Shown piece after piece: positions 6,425-13,667 of a DNA stretch of 64,000 nucleotides (positions are counted from its first letter, which is position 1; every line of letters starts with the position of its first letter). Below the pieces are notes generated by a model. That model saw only the letters and a program-made list of their open reading frames with translations. It made no database searches and had not been told where the DNA came from. The position numbers and the translations under genes are program-made. Location of the stretch: positions 1-64,000 of the forward strand of contig NZ_JARDUA010000003.1 of the NCBI RefSeq assembly GCF_029360645.1, read 5' to 3'. This stretch comes from Pontibacter litorisediminis (GTDB lineage Bacteria; Bacteroidota; Bacteroidia; Cytophagales; Hymenobacteraceae).

Positions 6425-6916
6425 GGTTTCCTATAGTTTAGGATGAAAATGTCTGCATTGCTGCTTGCCAACAGCCTCACTCTTTTAGCTCAGGTAGCAT
6501 ACACTACTTTACCACTATAAAGATGACATCATTCCTGCTCTTATAATAGGAAATAACAGAAGACAAAGTAACTATAATAAATCATGGTTTTTGTTGGCCT
6601 GTGTATGTGTAAGTATGCAGAGCATGTGCAGTCAGCTAGCCAGAAAGGTATAACGGAGTGGTATTTTAATCTGTAGACAGCCACCAAATGCACCTGAAAG
6701 AGGATAATTCTTTTCTTTGCCGGGGCAGCTGGCCCTGTTGCCGCACAATGCCTCGGGCGATAGTATAAACTCCGTTTGTGGCGGCGCCTGGCGAATAATC
6801 TATAGGATTAAGAGTTTAGAAGGCATAAAAAGTAACCGTAACGGGGAATACTCGGTATGATAAAGGAAGTTTTGTTCTTGATAATAAGGCATATTTGTTA
6901 ATGCGAATACGTGTTA
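6425..6916. other. Intergenic region upstream of sucA, no gene seen
   Basis: About 490 bases with no open frame worth calling on either strand. The sucA promoter lies at its right edge. The divergent gene at 6424 probably has its promoter at the left edge, but I cannot define it. Confidence 0.5.
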
Positions 6917-6946
6917 TTTGATTTTTCAATAATACCTCTAACTTTG
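6917..6946 (+). promoter_or_regulatory. Promoter of the sucA-sucB-lpd operon
   Basis: TTTG at 6917-6920, an 18-base spacer, then a perfect TAACTTTG -7 box at 6939-6946. This is the Bacteroidota housekeeping promoter form. Transcription should begin near 6952, which puts the upstream ATG at 6911 outside the message and fixes the sucA start at 6974. Confidence 0.75.
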
Positions 6947-6973
6947 CCTTTATCACATGCAGTAGTTTATACT

Positions 6974-9730
6974 ATGGATAAATATACCTACATCGCCAAT
7001 GCACACGGCGATTACATTGATGAGCTGTACAAGGCTTATCAGCAGGACCCGGAATCGGTAGATGCCGGATGGCGCAAGTTCTTCGAAGGCTTTGAGTTTG
7101 CCACCGCCTACGGCGAGAATGGCCATGAAGCCGCCGAAGGTACCATCGTCGCCCCTGCCAAAGGTGCCGCCGTTGCCGGCGAATCGGAGAAAGAGGTTGC
7201 CGTGCGCAACCTGATCCACGCTTACCGCACACGCGGCCACCTGCGCTCCAAAACCAACCCGGTGCGTGCCCGCAAAGACCGCAAGGCAAGGTTGGACCTG
7301 GCTGACTTCGGTTTAACAGAGGCTGACCTGGACACTGTGTTCCAGGTCGGGGAGATTATCGGCATCGGGCCGGCCACACTCCGCGATATCGAAGCAGCGC
7401 TGAAGAAGATCTACGAAGGCTCGATCGGCTTTGAGTACATGTACATCCGCGACCCGGAGGTGCTGGAGTGGTTTAAGCAGAAGGTAGAGCGCGACTCCCT
7501 GAATTTTAACCCAGGCATCGAGTATAAAAAGCGCATCCTGTCTAAACTGAACGAGGCGGTGGTGTTCGAGAACTTCCTGCACACGAAGTTCTTGGGCCAG
7601 AAGCGCTTTTCCCTGGAGGGCGGTGAAACCACGATCCCTGCCCTGGATGCCGCGATAGACAAGGCATCGGAGCTCGGCGTGGAGGAAGTAGTGATAGGCA
7701 TGGCGCACCGCGGCCGCCTGAACGTGCTGGCCAACATCATGGGCAAAACCTATGAGCAGATCTTCTCTGAGTTTGAGGGTACTGCCGTGCCAGACCTGAC
7801 CATGGGCGACGGAGACGTGAAGTACCACATGGGCTACTCGTCTGAGGTTACCACGCCATCCGGTAAGAAAGTAAACCTGAAGCTGGCTCCCAACCCATCG
7901 CACCTGGAGGCGGTGAACCCGGTAGTGGAAGGCTTTGTGCGCGCTAAAATTGACTGCATGTACGGCAAAGATGCCGATAAGGTACTGCCTATACTGATCC
8001 ATGGGGACGCTGCCGTTGCAGGCCAAGGCATCGTGTACGAGGTGACGCAGATGGCAAACCTGGAAGGCTACAATACTGGCGGCACCATCCATTTCGTGAT
8101 CAACAACCAGGTTGGTTTCACCACCGATTTTGAAGACGCCCGCTCGTCGATCTACTCTACCGATGTAGCCAAGATAATAGATGCGCCGGTGCTGCACGTA
8201 AACGGTGACGACCCGGAGTCGGTGGTGTTTGCCATGCGCATGGCCATGGAGTACCGCCAGCGCTACAACAACGACATCTTTGTAGACATGGTGTGCTACC
8301 GCCGCCATGGCCACAACGAGTCTGACGAGCCGAAATTCACGCAGCCACAACTGTACAACCTGATCTCGAAGCACGCCAACCCACGCGAAGTATACAACAA
8401 ACAGTTGATCTCGCGCGGCGAGGTGGATGCAGAGCTGGCCAAGAATATGGACAAGGAGTTCCGCAGCCTGCTGCAGGACCGCCTGGACATGGTAAAGCAG
8501 AAGCCGCTGCCTTATAACTACCAGCAGATGGAGAAGGAGTGGCAGTCGCTGCGCCGCTCTAAGCCTGAGGACTTCAATCAGTCTCCTGAAACTGGCGTTT
8601 CTGCAGAAGCTGTGGAGGCGGTAGGTAAAGCTTTGACTACTTTGCCGCAGGGCTTCAAGCCGCTGAAGCAGATCGAGAAGCTGCTTAAGGAGCGTAAGGA
8701 AATGTTCTTTGAGACCAAGCAGCTGAACTGGGCAGCCGGTGAGTTGCTGGCTTACGGGTCTGTGCTGCTGGATGGAAAGGTGGTGCGTTTCTCTGGCCAG
8801 GATGTGCAGCGCGGAACGTTCTCGCACCGCCATGCGGTGCTGCACGATGCCGTGACAAGCGCCCCGTACAACAACCTGAACCACATGACAGACAACCAGG
8901 GCTCTTTCGAGATCTACAACTCCCTGCTGTCTGAGTATGGCGTGCTGGGCTTTGAGTTCGGCTATGCCATGGCGAACCCGAATGCATTGGTGATCTGGGA
9001 GGCGCAGTTCGGCGACTTTGCCAACGGTGCCCAGGTTATGATCGACCAGTTCATCTCTGCTACAGAATCGAAGTGGCAGCGCATGAACGGCCTGGTGATG
9101 CTGTTGCCGCACGGCTACGAAGGCCAGGGGCCAGAGCACTCCAACGCACGCCCTGAACGCTTCCTGCAGCTGGCAGCCGAGAACAACATGTTCGTGACTT
9201 ACATCACCACACCTGCCAACCTGTTCCACTTTATGCGCCGCCAGTTGGCCTTGCCGTTCCGCAAGCCTGCCGTAAACATGTCGCCCAAGTCGTTGCTGCG
9301 CCATCCGGCCGTGGTTTCCCCGGTAGAGGACTTCACAAGCGGCAGCTTCAGAGAAGTGATCGGCGATACCTACGCACCGGCTAAGTCAGTGAAGAAAGTG
9401 CTGCTGTGCTGGGGCAAAGTATACTTCGACCTGCTGGAAGAGCAGCAGAAGAACAACCGCAAGGACGTGGCCATTATCCGCATGGAGCAGTTGGCGCCGT
9501 TCCCGAAGGTGCAGCTGGAGGCAGAGCTTGGCAAGTATAAAAACGCTAAAGTATACTGGGTACAGGAAGAGCCTGAGAACATGGGTGCCTGGACCTACAT
9601 CCTGCGTATCATGCGCAATGGCGTGGAAGACGTAGTAGCCCGCAAGGCAAGTGCGTCGCCGGCAACCGGCTACCTGAAGGTGCATGCCAAAGAGCAGCAG
9701 GAGCTAATCGAAAGAGCGTTTGCTGTATAG
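6974..9730 (+). CDS. sucA: 2-oxoglutarate dehydrogenase E1 component
   Basis: Thiamine-diphosphate enzyme that decarboxylates 2-oxoglutarate and transfers the succinyl group to the lipoyl arm of SucB. 918 residues from the chosen ATG, the usual length. The N-terminus YIANAHGDYIDELY matches the E2/E3-binding segment of SucA. Internal landmarks are GMAHRGRLNVL, HGDAAVAGQG, the ThDP block INNQVGFTT, RRHGHNESDEP, SHRHAVLHD and the C-terminal EEPENMGAW. The frame is open to 6911, but a promoter occupies that stretch. First gene of an operon with sucB and lpd, although each junction is interrupted by a small repeat-framed gene. Confidence 0.97.
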   Translation: MDKYTYIANAHGDYIDELYKAYQQDPESVDAGWRKFFEGFEFATAYGENGHEAAEGTIVAPAKGAAVAGESEKEVAVRNLIHAYRTRGHLRSKTNPVRARKDRKARLDLADFGLTEADLDTVFQVGEIIGIGPATLRDIEAALKKIYEGSIGFEYMYIRDPEVLEWFKQKVERDSLNFNPGIEYKKRILSKLNEAVVFENFLHTKFLGQKRFSLEGGETTIPALDAAIDKASELGVEEVVIGMAHRGRLNVLANIMGKTYEQIFSEFEGTAVPDLTMGDGDVKYHMGYSSEVTTPSGKKVNLKLAPNPSHLEAVNPVVEGFVRAKIDCMYGKDADKVLPILIHGDAAVAGQGIVYEVTQMANLEGYNTGGTIHFVINNQVGFTTDFEDARSSIYSTDVAKIIDAPVLHVNGDDPESVVFAMRMAMEYRQRYNNDIFVDMVCYRRHGHNESDEPKFTQPQLYNLISKHANPREVYNKQLISRGEVDAELAKNMDKEFRSLLQDRLDMVKQKPLPYNYQQMEKEWQSLRRSKPEDFNQSPETGVSAEAVEAVGKALTTLPQGFKPLKQIEKLLKERKEMFFETKQLNWAAGELLAYGSVLLDGKVVRFSGQDVQRGTFSHRHAVLHDAVTSAPYNNLNHMTDNQGSFEIYNSLLSEYGVLGFEFGYAMANPNALVIWEAQFGDFANGAQVMIDQFISATESKWQRMNGLVMLLPHGYEGQGPEHSNARPERFLQLAAENNMFVTYITTPANLFHFMRRQLALPFRKPAVNMSPKSLLRHPAVVSPVEDFTSGSFREVIGDTYAPAKSVKKVLLCWGKVYFDLLEEQQKNNRKDVAIIRMEQLAPFPKVQLEAELGKYKNAKVYWVQEEPENMGAWTYILRIMRNGVEDVVARKASASPATGYLKVHAKEQQELIERAFAV

Positions 9731-10168
9731 AATTAAGAATTAGGAATTTGAAATTAAGAATGTGAAAGCAGAGAATGTGTTACTTACTAAGAGTTATGCC
9801 TTTGCTATTCGCATCGTTAATTTATATAAATTCCTATATCAGGAGAAGAAGGATGTTGTTATGTCAAGGCAGGTTCTTCGAAGTGGTACATCTATAGGGG
9901 CAAATGCTGAGGAAGCGATAGGTGCCCAGAGCAAGAGGGATTTTATATCAAAGGTGTCTATTGTGTATAAGGAAGCCAGAGAAACAAACTATTGGCTAAG
10001 GCTATTAAGAGACACTGGCTTTATGAACCAAGAGCAGGCGACTTCGTTGCTTATAGATTGTGAAGAACTGTTGAAGATTACTGGCTCAATACTGAAAACA
10101 ACAAAACAGAATACCGGTACTTAATTCTGCATAAATAATTCTTAATTATTAATTCGTAATTCCTAATT
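9731..10168 (+). repeat. Inverted-repeat-framed element A in the sucA-sucB spacer
   Basis: The left arm (9731-9761) begins directly after the sucA stop codon and is built from AATTAAGAATTAGG-type words. The right arm (10137-10168) is an imperfect, gapped inverted copy ending about 10 bases before the sucB ATG. Shared blocks are AATTAGGAATT and AATTAAGAAT. The enclosed gene is a four-helix-bundle protein. The arms could pair in the polycistronic mRNA and close the insert as a stem-loop. See the related elements at 11771, 16605 and 18094. Confidence 0.75.
9762..10124 (+). CDS. Four-helix-bundle protein, 23S rRNA intervening-sequence (S23) family
   Basis: 120 residues starting at GTG 9762. It carries the hallmarks of the family: a first helix with FAIRIVNLYKFL, the conserved SGTSIGANAEEA segment after VLRSG (about 41-52), the second motif FISKVSIVYKEARETNYWLRLL, and a final helix ending in a Lys/Thr-rich tail. 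Members are encoded inside intervening sequences of 23S rRNA in some bacteria, and a related fold (Avd) works with diversity-generating retroelements. No molecular role is established for stand-alone copies. This one sits between sucA and sucB inside inverted-repeat arms, and a paralogue sits between sucB and lpd. Confidence 0.9.
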   Translation: MKAENVLLTKSYAFAIRIVNLYKFLYQEKKDVVMSRQVLRSGTSIGANAEEAIGAQSKRDFISKVSIVYKEARETNYWLRLLRDTGFMNQEQATSLLIDCEELLKITGSILKTTKQNTGT

Positions 10169-10177
10169 GAATAAAAT

Positions 10178-11749
10178 ATGAGCTTAGAAGTTAAAGTGCC
10201 TGCCGTAGGTGAGTCGATCACTGAGGTAACCATAGCCCAATGGCTAAAGAAAGATGGCGACCGAGTGGAGATGGATGAGGTGATTGCGGAGCTGGAATCT
10301 GACAAAGCCACATTCGAACTGCCAGCCGAAGCCGCAGGCATTTTACGCATTGTAGCACAGGAGGGCGACACCATAGACGTGGGTGCTGTCATCTGCCGAA
10401 TCGATCAGGACGGTGCTGCTGCATCTGCCCCTTCGGCCCCTGCTGCTGAGCAGGCGGCTGCCCCTGCCGCCCAGGAACCTGCCCCGGCTGCTACTACTGG
10501 CGGCGCCGGCGAGGCCGTGGAGATGAGAGTGCCAACCGTAGGCGAGTCTATCTCGGAGGTAACCATTGCCAGCTGGCTGAAAAACGAAGGCGACCGGGTG
10601 GAGATGGACGAGGTGATTGCGGAGCTGGAATCTGACAAGGCGACGTTTGAGCTGCCGGCTGAGGCTGCAGGAACGCTGCAGATCATCGCGCAGCAGGGCG
10701 ACACCGTAGAGATTGGCGGGCTGCTTTGCAAGATCGTGCCAGGCGCCGGCGCCGCGAAAGCCAACGCACAGGCCAACGCCAAGCAGGAGGCAGCCAACCA
10801 AACTGTTGCCTCTCAGCCAGCCGCTGCCGCTACTTCAGGCGCGCAAACGTACGCTTCTGGTACGCCGTCTCCGGCTGCCGGCAAAATCCTGGCAGAGAAA
10901 GGTATAAACCCAGCGGATGTGCAGGGTTCTGGCCGCGATGGCCGCATCACGAAAGAGGATGCGCAAAACGCGCAGAAAGCTGCCGCTAAGCCCGCCGCTG
11001 CTGCGCCGGCCGCCAAGCAAGAGGCTGCTGCCCCTGCCGCCACTGGCGACCGTAACCAGCGCCGCGAGAAAATGAGCTCGCTGCGCAAAACGGTGTCTCG
11101 CCGCCTGGTGCAGGTAAAGAACGAAACGGCCATGCTTACTACCTTTAACGAGGTAGACATGAAGCCAATCATGGATATCCGCGCCAAGTATAAGGAGAAG
11201 TTCAAGGAGAAGCACGACGTAGGCCTGGGCTTTATGTCCTTCTTCACGAAGGCCTGTACGGTAGCCCTGCAGGAGTGGCCGGCAGTAAACGCCCAGATCG
11301 ATGGCAACGACATGATCTTCAATGATTTTGTGGATGTGTCAATCGCAGTTTCCTCTCCGAAAGGCCTCGTGGTGCCGGTTATCCGTAACGCTGAGCAACT
11401 GACACTGGACGGTATCGAGAAAGAAGTGATTCGACTGGCGAAGAAAGCCCGCGACGGTAAACTTTCTATCGAAGAGATGACAGGCGGTACCTTCACAATA
11501 ACCAACGGTGGTGTGTTCGGCTCCATGATGTCTACGCCAATCATCAACGCGCCGCAGTCAGCTATATTGGGTATGCACAACATTGTGCAGCGCCCGGTAG
11601 CCGTGGACGGACAAGTGGAAATTCGCCCGATGATGTACCTGGCGCTGTCTTACGACCACCGCATCATCGACGGCCGCGAGTCGGTAAGCTTCCTGGTACG
11701 CGTGAAAGAGCTGCTGGAAGACCCGATGCGCTTATTGCTGGGCGTCTAA
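10178..11749 (+). CDS. sucB: 2-oxoglutarate dehydrogenase E2 (dihydrolipoyl succinyltransferase), two lipoyl domains
   Basis: Core of the OGDH complex: carries succinyl on a lipoyl-lysine and hands it to CoA. 523 residues. Two tandem lipoyl domains (about 1-77 and 114-190), each with [13 protein letters not shown]; the lipoylated lysines should be K43 and K154. Ala/Pro/Gln-rich linkers separate them. The peripheral-subunit-binding domain follows ([20 protein letters not shown]), then the catalytic acyltransferase with [11 protein letters not shown] (His494, Asp498). Many SucB proteins have a single lipoyl domain, so this one is longer than usual. It sits between the two four-helix-bundle elements. 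Confidence 0.96.
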
Positions 11750-11770
11750 CGCCGCTTGCGCACTAAGCGC

Positions 11771-12256
11771 AGTTAAGAGTTAAAAGTTATGAGTTAAGAG
11801 TGATTTTGGATTTAAAGTATAGAATCTGCGTAATCAACTTTTAACTCATAACTCTAGACTTTTAACTATAAAAGCATGGCTGATAGCATTGTAGCGCAGA
11901 AATCATTTCAGTTTGCATTAAGGATTACCAAACTCTATCTGTACCTGAAAGATCAAAAGCAGGAGTTTATACTCGCAAAGCAACTGGTTAGAAGCGGTAC
12001 ATCTATCGGTGCCAATACTGAAGAGGCTGTAGCGGCACAATCCAAGCCTGATTTTATTCATAAGCTGCAGATTGCTTTAAAAGAAGCACGGGAAACCAGC
12101 TATTGGCTAAGGCTGTTACATGCGGTTAATTTAATTGAAACAGCAGCCTTTGAAAGTATCCACAAAGACTGCGTTGAGTTGCAAAAGATGTTAAGCAGCA
12201 TCATTCTTACTTCAAAAAAGAACAACTCTTAACTCATAACTTTTAACTCTTAACTT
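11771..12256 (+). repeat. Inverted-repeat-framed element B in the sucB-lpd spacer
   Basis: The left arm at 11771-11801 pairs perfectly over 31 bases with the right arm inside 12224-12256. Both consist of TTAAGAGTTAAAAGTTATGAG-like iterations. A second inverted copy (11838-11853) of part of the left arm lies just upstream of the enclosed gene, so alternative hairpins are possible. The right arm contains the stop codon of the four-helix-bundle gene and runs up to the lpd start region. The design matches elements A, C and D, but the arm sequence is different. Confidence 0.88.
11876..12232 (+). CDS. Four-helix-bundle protein, 23S rRNA intervening-sequence (S23) family
   Basis: 118 residues, a paralogue of the protein at 9762. 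Shared landmarks: KSFQFALRITKLYLYL, LVRSGTSIGANTEEAVAAQSK, HKLQIALKEARETSYWLRLL, then a terminal helix with ELQKMLSSI. The two proteins share the family core but differ along most of their length, so they are not a recent duplication. The stop codon is formed inside the right inverted-repeat arm. No function is established for stand-alone members; an RNA-binding or element-maintenance role is inference from the location. Confidence 0.9.
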   Translation: MADSIVAQKSFQFALRITKLYLYLKDQKQEFILAKQLVRSGTSIGANTEEAVAAQSKPDFIHKLQIALKEARETSYWLRLLHAVNLIETAAFESIHKDCVELQKMLSSIILTSKKNNS

Positions 12257-12263
12257 GAACGAA

Positions 12264-13667
12264 GTGAAATACGATGTAACTGTAATCGGTTCTGGTCCTG
12301 GCGGCTATGTGGCAGCGATCCGTTGCGCGCAGCTGGGCCTGAAAACCGCGATCATAGAGAAGTATAACGTGCTGGGCGGTACTTGCCTTAACGTGGGCTG
12401 TATTCCTTCCAAGGCGCTCCTGGATTCATCCGAGCACTTCCACAACGCCGCGCATACCTTCTCCACGCACGGCATCGAGCTGGAAAACCTGAAGGTGAAC
12501 ATCCAGCAGATGATCAAGCGCAAGGGCGAGGTGGTGAAGTCGAACAACGACGGCATCGCCTTCCTGATGAAGAAGAACAAGATCGATACCTACTATGGCC
12601 TGGGCTCTTTCGTGAACAAGAACACGATCAAGATCACAGACGCAGAAGGAAAAGAGCAGCAGATCGAGACAGACAAGACGATCATCGCGACAGGCTCTAA
12701 GCCGACTGCCCTGCCGTTCCTGCCAATCGATAAGAAGCGCATCATCACATCTACAGAAGCCTTAACACTGACAGAGGTTCCGAAGAACCTGATCGTGATC
12801 GGTGGCGGTGTGATCGGCCTGGAGCTGGGTTCGGTTTATGCCCGCCTGGGAGCGAAGGTGCAGGTGATCGAGTACATGGACGCCATCATCCCGACCATGG
12901 ACCGCGCGCTGGGCAAAGAGCTGCAGCGTGTGCTGAAGAAAACGCTGGGCTTCGAGTTCTTCATGAGCCATAAAGTAACCGGTGCCACCAACGAGGGCGA
13001 AACGGTGAAAGTAACGGCCGAGAATCCAAAAGGCGAGGCGGTAACGTTTGAAGGCGATTACGTGCTGGTATCTGTTGGGCGCAGACCTTATACAGAAGGT
13101 CTCGGCCTGGAGAACGCCGGTGTGCAAATGGGCGAGCGCGGTATGATTGCCGTAAACGACCACCTGGAGACAAACGTGCCGGGCATTTTCGCGATTGGCG
13201 ACGTGGTGCGTGGCGCTATGCTGGCGCACAAAGCCGAGGAAGAAGGCGTGCTGGTGGCAGAGTACATGGTAGGCCAGAAGCCGCACATCAACTACAACCT
13301 GATACCTGGGGTAGTTTATACTTGGCCTGAGGTGGCAGGCGTAGGCTTTACCGAAGAGCAGCTGAAGGAGCAGGGACGCGCCTACAAGTCCGGTTCATTC
13401 CCGTTCAAAGCATCTGGCCGCGCCAAAGCATCCGGCGACACAGACGGTTTCGTGAAGGTGTTGGCTGATAAGGAAACTGACGAGATCCTGGGCGTGCACA
13501 TGATCGGCCCGCGCATTGCTGATTTGATTGCCGAGGCGGTAACCGCCATGGAATTCCGCGCCTCTGCCGAGGATGTGGCCCGCATGAGCCACGCGCACCC
13601 AACCTTTGCCGAAGCCATGAAAGAAGCGTGTCTGGCCGCTACGGAGAACCGTGCCATTCATATCTAA
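12264..13667 (+). CDS. lpd: Dihydrolipoyl dehydrogenase (E3)
   Basis: FAD-dependent enzyme that reoxidises dihydrolipoyl groups of SucB with NAD+. The protein shows the FAD-binding IGSGPGGYVAA, the redox disulfide in GGTCLNVGCIPSK, the NAD-binding VIGGGVIGLELGSVYARLG, and the C-terminal HAHPTFAEAMKE with the active-site His of the partner subunit. I chose GTG at 12264 (467 residues, beginning KYDVTVIG) because family similarity starts there. TTG at 12255 in the same frame lies inside the repeat arm of element B. Third gene of the complete OGDH operon, followed by a strong terminator. Confidence 0.96.
   Translation: MKYDVTVIGSGPGGYVAAIRCAQLGLKTAIIEKYNVLGGTCLNVGCIPSKALLDSSEHFHNAAHTFSTHGIELENLKVNIQQMIKRKGEVVKSNNDGIAFLMKKNKIDTYYGLGSFVNKNTIKITDAEGKEQQIETDKTIIATGSKPTALPFLPIDKKRIITSTEALTLTEVPKNLIVIGGGVIGLELGSVYARLGAKVQVIEYMDAIIPTMDRALGKELQRVLKKTLGFEFFMSHKVTGATNEGETVKVTAENPKGEAVTFEGDYVLVSVGRRPYTEGLGLENAGVQMGERGMIAVNDHLETNVPGIFAIGDVVRGAMLAHKAEEEGVLVAEYMVGQKPHINYNLIPGVVYTWPEVAGVGFTEEQLKEQGRAYKSGSFPFKASGRAKASGDTDGFVKVLADKETDEILGVHMIGPRIADLIAEAVTAMEFRASAEDVARMSHAHPTFAEAMKEACLAATENRAIHI

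Follow-up and report, generated by a model that had tools for sequence, protein, structure and literature searches.

In REP/RAYT systems, a protein gene is bracketed by inverted palindromic repeats, of which many gene-less copies are dispersed. Heptanucleotide repeats are known from cyanobacteria as STRR sequences, to which the tandem heptads described here can be likened. Also close to our locus are the intervening sequences (IVSs) of 23S rRNA with an S23p ORF, e.g., in helix 45 of the Coxiella 23S rRNA, which encode the same protein family and carry terminal inverted repeats; passages of PMC4990558 describe excision by RNase III and, for one 23S IVS, heptameric repeats before the S23p ORF. 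For Beggiatoaceae, some Cyanobacteria, and five Bacteroidetes, PMC4679880 reports tandem TAACTGA units close to start codons. In that paper, a TAACTGA binder is proposed only, namely from the S1, Csp, and Csr families, and the terms '23S rRNA', 'S23', and 'four-helix' do not occur in its text. The paper also names a multicopy hypothetical protein, BOGUAY_0693, with 29 close matches in a heptamer-rich genome. According to PMC10053308, homology of Avd of diversity-generating retroelements (4DWL) with PF05635 (2GSC) is suggested. We found no open-access paper that connects heptad arms with the PF05635 family in general.

The Element between sucB and lpd

The window, i.e., the whole stretch of 64,000 nucleotides analyzed here, contains an operon in the order sucA-IVP-sucB-IVP-lpd (Table 1). 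An earlier note on this DNA had described a gene for a four-helix-bundle protein between sucB and lpd, framed by a perfect inverted repeat. Both statements are confirmed: the two arms are complementary at 31 of 31 positions, 423 nt apart, and the ORF between them matches PF05635 as well as TIGR02436. The element lies stop-to-start inside the operon. Its heptad word consists of AGTT followed by three nucleotides, with about five units per arm, and a search of the window for the 29-nt arm core with up to three mismatches returned two places only, namely the two arms (0 of 100 shuffles). The arm-ORF-arm layout was borne out here and in other IVP elements.

The right arm had been said to include the stop codon of the ORF and to touch the start of lpd. 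The first part is correct. The ORF list begins lpd at TTG 12255, and we prefer the GTG at 12264 from relatives; the arm then ends 8 nt before the likely start, a placement from which it could influence lpd translation. The inner array starts 66 nt from the start of the left arm, which lies inside the spacing range of 41 to 403 nt of arms-only hairpins in the genus.

An Rfam scan of the window revealed one 5S at the window start and two tRNAs only, and the element is not located inside a 23S rRNA gene. Among the collected loci, a 23S k-mer check returned only two weak matches (L109 and L165).

Table 1: Features of the sucA-sucB-lpd region; positions refer to the window.
Feature	Position	Strand	Remarks
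sucA (2-oxoglutarate dehydrogenase E1)	6911..9730	+	
Sister left arm	9731..9762	+	AATT heptads; directly after sucA stop
Second IVP gene, 120 aa	9762..10124	+	ORF and profile match
Sister right arm	10137..10168	+	five AATT heptads; ends 9 nt before sucB start
sucB (E2 acyltransferase)	10178..11749	+	
Left arm	11771..11801	+	heptads AGTTaag AGTTaaa AGTTatg AGTTaag AGTg; last unit reaches 11802
Inner array, right-arm type	11837..11867	+	84% complementary to left arm; upstream of IVP ATG
IVP/S23p four-helix-bundle protein gene, 118 aa	11876..12232	+	ORF and profile matches
Right arm	12225..12255	+	five heptads with AACT boxes, the first starting at 12224; contains ORF stop 12230-12232
lpd (E3)	12264..13667	+	GTG start inferred from relatives with ATG at the same place

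The IVP Protein Family

Against PF05635 (23S_rRNA_IVP), the sole Pfam match of the ORF, the profile search yielded an E-value of 5.2e-29 and 101 bits at a cut-off of 33.8; for TIGR02436 (four helix bundle protein), the score is 113.7 bits at a cut-off of 24. The PF05635 match places the protein in the same family as the proteins of 23S rRNA intervening sequences, as the earlier note had stated. Solved relatives with five chains are 2rld (E 3e-34) and 2gsc (a weak match, E 0.058), and a Xanthomonas protein is described as a toroidal homopentamer in PMC4990558 (title cited in PMC10053308).

The IVP protein is under purifying selection at most sites. At eight of ten sites, dN/dS ranges from 0.04 to 0.16 (pairs with dS 0.05-2); the outlying values are 0.72 at site L153, where two subfamilies are mixed, and 0.22 at site L163, obtained from one pair.

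Heptad Arms in Relatives of the Genus and the Order

We collected 132 IVP elements from genus and order relatives. They represent 127 loci, since broken IVP copies exist among the relatives and five of them (L035, L144, L154, L168, and L180) were each counted as two pieces. The set includes 60 places from the matches listed, lower-scoring ones being left out, and was grouped into 21 sites by single-linkage clustering of neighbor genes.

The flanks of these elements reveal a lag-7 identity of 16.8 and 17.6 of 24, versus 10.7 to 11.7 at the other lags from 4 to 11. Units per arm peak at five (66/132 and 59/132), while shuffles peak at two to three. Five-unit arm pairs above all 132 shuffles were found for 106 elements (105 loci) at 16 of the 21 sites; as the arm windows were picked for shared cores, core pairing is biased upward in this comparison. 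The remaining 26 elements fall below the threshold, and one site of seven elements is devoid of heptads. Counted by site, lag 7 scores at least 17 upstream at 11 of 21 sites and downstream at 16 of 21, and lag 8 does so at 3 of 21. A few elements have period 8 instead of 7. Array length varies as well, up to 23 units in a named locus (see below) and 26 in an order relative. Five units per arm are hence the mode, not the rule.

Two side observations concern unusual arms. In an IVP subfamily comprising L005 and L173, as well as L179 with the same upstream neighbor, the arms read in L005 and L173 repeat at 8-9 nt, of the GTTAGAAA type. In L026, a 57-nt inverted repeat surrounds the IVP gene and exceeds a five-heptad arm.

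In the 106 armed elements, the left arm starts a median of 1.5 nt after the upstream stop (located for 102) and the right arm ends at a median distance of 9 nt from the start that follows (located for 99); an arm window may be one unit off, which shifts these distances accordingly.

The Sister Element and the sucA-sucB Gaps

Between sucA and sucB, the window contains a second IVP gene with arms of its own and different heptads (AATT), which the earlier note had missed, as it had the inner array at sucB-lpd and the heptad structure of the arms. We examined this gap in 32 of the 50 genus genomes, 28 without and four with an IVP gene. At least four AATT heptads, one mismatch per heptad allowed, occur in the last 60 nt before sucB in 25 of the 28 IVP-lacking gaps (4 of 560 shuffles) and in the first 60 nt of the gap in nine of the 28. 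The heptads before sucB in these IVP-lacking gaps (L044-L071) hint at a leader function for the right arm.

According to a rival explanation, the IVP protein is a stationary autoregulator that binds heptads in mRNA leaders and controls translation of the next gene, the element not being selfish. The position of the right arm shortly before the next start and the heptads in IVP-lacking sucA-sucB gaps agree with it, as does the proposal in PMC4679880 that TAACTGA heptads near start codons are translational sites elsewhere. Against a regulator tied to its operon, IVP genes occur in unrelated gene sets, other neighbor pairs being thiolase/acyl-CoA dehydrogenase and MraY-like/MurD-like, as well as cas2/cas1, drmD/pglX, and hsdS/hsdR on plasmids; an IVP gene can run antisense to its neighbors; and the sucB-lpd alleles scatter on the species tree like shuffles (see below). 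We consider a stationary autoregulator unlikely.

A Shared Word rather than a Conserved RNA Stem

Inside one element, both arms carry one word in inverted orientation, and words differ between elements. The types found across elements are AGTTAAG, AATTAGA, GAGTTCT, TAGATGT, AGACACA, CACGTAT, GACAAAG, CAGTTAA, ATTGTTG, TCGTTGT, and TAGTTAT. Within sites where words vary, an arm pairs with its own partner at 23.1 of 32 positions versus 11.6 with the arm of another element (n=20), and at 23.2 versus 11.5 in a second comparison (n=13). The neighbor genes at the compared orthologous sites are mostly 76-97% identical, with a few short alignments at 53-74%. At seven of ten sites, the two arms of an element vary in concert (r 0.76-0.98); r is negative at the other three, where words hardly vary.

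Permuting the order of heptads does not lower arm pairing (106 elements, 16 sites; Wilcoxon p 0.81 over sites). The complementarity of the arms thus comes from the shared inverted word.

This result bears on the model put forward in the earlier note, an intervening sequence located in mRNA, in which RNase III would cut the 31-bp stem and either remove the IVP segment or separate sucB from lpd mRNA. The 23S IVSs with the same protein family, for which excision by RNase III as well as terminal inverted repeats are described (PMC4990558), provide a precedent, and for the sucB-lpd copy itself the predicted RNA fold of 11750-12290 holds the full stem with a z-score of -6.1, as anticipated. As a conserved feature, the stem was not borne out: pairing is no better than with permuted heptad order, site means of arm pairing range from 19 to 27 of 32 positions, and the left arm of the sucB-lpd copy has a competing partner in the inner array, which is of right-arm type. 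Furthermore, 36 of the 50 genus genomes have no IVP gene in the sucB-lpd gap. The strong stem predicted for the sucB-lpd copy is not a family rule. An RNase III-excised intervening sequence in mRNA is not supported as the general design, since the arms pair no better than their shared word entails, and we regard the model as improbable.

Replacement of Arm-Gene-Arm Cassettes

Word changes were counted on trees for six sites. Four of these have at least two automatically formed word clusters, and at all four the word needs a single change on the IVP protein tree, which is the minimum. On the tree of the neighbor genes, the same sites need 6, 5, 2, and 4 word changes versus 6.0, 4.8, 3.2, and 4.2 for shuffled words; three of them behave like shuffles and L126 is intermediate (2 changes, 32 of 200 shuffles as low). 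At site L122, the thiolase/acyl-CoA dehydrogenase gap, each of four word classes is one clade in the IVP tree (the minimum of 3 changes, reached by 0 of 200 shuffles), and the word needs 11 changes on the neighbor tree and 10 on the species tree versus 10.9 and 11.0 when shuffled. Since the word tracks the IVP tree and is random on the neighbor tree at three sites, arm, gene, and arm are replaced as one cassette. At orthologous sites the unit is swapped out of step with its flanking genes.

In the sucB-lpd gap of the 50 genus genomes, eight carry an IVP of class A, six an IVP of class B, and 36 an unrelated IVP-free spacer. The allele changes 13 times on the species tree (shuffled mean 13.2), and well supported sister species differ. 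Taken alone, the IVP-free class is slightly clustered (10 changes versus 12.3 shuffled, 27 of 500 as low). None of the 36 IVP-free spacers reaches a lag-7 score of 17. A comparison with such spacers, to find empty sites, had been suggested; the 36 spacers are different sequence, in which no junction is readable. Neither an empty-site junction nor a target duplication was found among the IVP-lacking spacers, and a simple insertion into such a spacer was rejected, as no common sequence is recognizable by eye. The IVP-free spacers contain a GGAGGAG...CTCCTCC hairpin plus differing families of other palindromes. Five aligned class-A carriers have a spacer identity of 0.77-0.86 versus 0.79-0.87 in the flanks. 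Class-A spacers have diverged about as much as their flanks, which indicates that their spread is not recent.

A homing-like co-conversion of sucB was considered and rejected: the sucB end is not significantly co-transferred with IVP-A (74 of 500 resamples reach the same value) and not at all with IVP-B (469 of 500).

For swaps within the genus, homologous spacer exchange is a serious rival. Cassettes would then be ordinary spacer alleles, swapped by homologous recombination via the conserved flanking genes, with no mobility of their own. The same sites are indeed reused across the genus (132 elements at 21 sites) and flank homology is available. In seven of seven sister pairs, moreover, the final 50 nt of sucB are less identical than the sequence directly preceding them, with a smaller drop, from 0.865 to 0.817, also between IVP-free genomes. 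Yet the resampling of the sucB end given above does not reveal a significant co-transfer, other phyla contain this architecture at places that are unrelated, and dispersed arms-only copies need another route. As an account that dispenses with mobility, homologous exchange appears rather unlikely to us, while deserving more weight than a regulatory role.

Named Loci and Plasmids in Other Phyla

Beyond the order, we inspected the best 80 of at least 591 pattern matches (named loci), a choice which leans to the IVP subfamily of the window and includes many MAGs. 78 of the 80 were testable; L218 and L225 were left out, their flank being cut by a contig end. As labelled, the loci belong to more than ten phyla, with Bacteroidota, Clostridia, Verrucomicrobiota, Lentisphaerota, Ignavibacteria, Acidobacteria, KSB1, Cloacimonadota, Bdellovibrio, Fusobacteriota, Chloroflexi, and others.

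Within these best 80, a lag-7 score of at least 18 of 24 was reached upstream by 69, downstream by 70, and in either flank by 75 of the 78 loci, versus 0 for shuffles and 2 of 146 for stretches 800 nt away. Units per arm again peak at five (33/78 and 37/78). An inverted repeat of at least 12 between a locus's own arms was found for 72 of the 78 (best 80), versus 1 in shuffles, 1 of 68 in far stretches, and 45 of 309 in cross-locus pairs; the latter reach 12 because many loci share AATT words. The arm-gene-arm architecture recurs across phyla.

Plasmids carry it, too. Out of 25 plasmid records with a match, eight were examined (H1-H6, H9, and H18), and in all eight, each flank scores at least 17; arrays exceeding five units are frequent. 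Their hosts are Bernardetia, Euhalothece, Treponema saccharophilum, Anabaena, two Nostoc, Planktothrix, and Monoglobus. One of these loci, L311, is weak, with A-rich arrays, other lags up to 17, and an inverted repeat of only 11.

Tandem repeats slip, and in quasi-palindrome correction one arm can serve as the template for the other. The arms could therefore be simple repeats that slippage and hairpin-templated correction keep alike, with the IVP gene being incidental; in line with this, most arrays lie away from IVP genes in two genus genomes listed at length. The tight tie to IVP genes in the best 80 named loci, compared with the far stretches, argues against it, and so does the unit number, which peaks at five while words change. 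Heptad order, moreover, is not mirrored between the arms, as template copying would give. This explanation is very improbable.

As to the neighborhood of plasmid IVP genes, L311, L315, L313, and L314 lie in cas2/cas1 (antisense to both), drmD/pglX, and hsdS/hsdR gaps. 18 IVP genes in cas loci are mentioned in PMC3936711.

Arms-Only Arrays

The earlier note had named arms without the ORF, and arms distributed independently of four-helix-bundle genes, as signs against its reading. Such signs are partly present, as arm sequences lacking an IVP gene occur elsewhere in the genome and 25 of the 28 IVP-lacking sucA-sucB gaps have AATT heptads before sucB; against them stands the strong link of arms with IVP genes (75 of the 78 testable loci among the best 80). 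A pattern of four AAYT heptads matches in each of the 50 genus genomes, including three in which no IVP match was obtained, and arms-only arrays are dispersed. Among 46 central arrays examined, 27 have five units and 20 an inverted partner within 600 nt, where the search patterns themselves demanded three or four units. The pattern matches given in this section overlap and count palindromic arrays on both strands and are not array numbers.

With own arms left out, the seven TAGA-word genomes contain 63, 30, 21, 0, 18, 100, and 10 TAGA matches, versus at most 17 in other genomes (p 8e-5, ignoring kinship); G066 is the TAGA-word genome with no TAGA matches beyond its own arms. The six AGAC-word genomes contain 2, 2, 7, 1, 9, and 13 AGAC matches (p 2e-4, ignoring kinship), and three TAGA-word genomes exceed them in AGAC matches. 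When corrected for the tree, the association of word and arrays comes to about 3:0 pairs, which is not significant with so few pairs. Arms-only arrays tend to use the word of the resident IVP, in statistics that ignore kinship. A reversed-pattern control also matches in several genomes, up to 63 times for TAGA in G068, presumably because TAGAT arrays satisfy the pattern in reverse as well. IVP gene number is no robust predictor of AAYT matches: rho is 0.50 raw, and 0.30 and 0.13 after removing four and eight matches per IVP gene, respectively.

In the window's own genome, a gap which we take to belong to a tldD-like gene (L042) contains an arms-only AGTT hairpin; in L011, L013, L015, L017, L019, and L023, this gap is the place of an IVP gene whose words are of the GAGT type.

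A Proposed Compact Mobile Element

We propose that the locus is a compact mobile, probably selfish intergenic element, consisting of an IVP gene between two inverted heptad arrays and encoding a presumably pentameric protein that would recognize its own arms. Binding and mobility are inferred from sequence comparison, and we put the chance of this reading at just short of even. Given five words in an arm and five subunits in the solved relatives, the pentamer may recognize its arms with about one word per subunit in a ring-like manner, the simplest geometry being a single strand winding around the ring. Arm recognition would mark the ends of the element for copying or replacement into operon gaps, and arms-only hairpins would be non-autonomous derivatives. 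Word and gene are physically linked, and their co-inheritance alone is no proof of recognition.

A diversity-generating retroelement or retro-mobility in cis was rejected: the genome of the window (G000) has no match to the reverse transcriptase profile RVT_1 (PF00078), and 24 of the 50 genus genomes have one somewhere. On contig C1 of G002, RVT_1 genes occur in repeated pairs about 1.9 kb apart, in six pair copies. Y1 transposase matches were found in 43 of the 50 genus genomes, G000 having five matches.

More tentatively, and as a possibility to which we assign less than even weight, IVP/S23p pentamers in general may read a five-word code, with each lineage using its own word; gene and arms would then be among the smallest mobile elements, and the 23S IVSs as well as the orphan heptamers of cyanobacteria and Bacteroidota would be offshoots. 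If true, this would join three puzzles, namely what a common family of pentameric proteins does, how 23S rRNA intervening sequences arose, and which protein binds the scattered heptamers. The layout may explain both the IVP protein and the puzzling seven-letter repeats, and the word/protein pairs at orthologous sites would constitute a natural series for reading a recognition code.

Comparison with Known Systems

Compared with the 23S IVSs, the element lies in operon gaps, not in rRNA, and two-sided heptads, the five-unit mode, word change, and cassette swapping are general here. The TAACTGA repeats are described as one fixed word, whereas words vary here and stand inverted around an IVP gene, whose product is a candidate reader; TAACTGA units are not the word in the window, which has words of the AGTTAAG and AATTAAG types. 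Like REP/RAYT systems, the family has dispersed gene-less copies of its arms. Unlike REP/RAYT with its HUH Y1 transposase, the gene encodes a PF05635 four-helix bundle and the arms are heptad arrays. The difference to diversity-generating retroelements is given by the lack of an RVT_1 match in this genome. Finally, the ring protein TRAP binds 11 RNA triplets. TRAP is unrelated to the IVP proteins, which are putative binders; the common principle that we propose is a symmetric ring reading tandem repeats.
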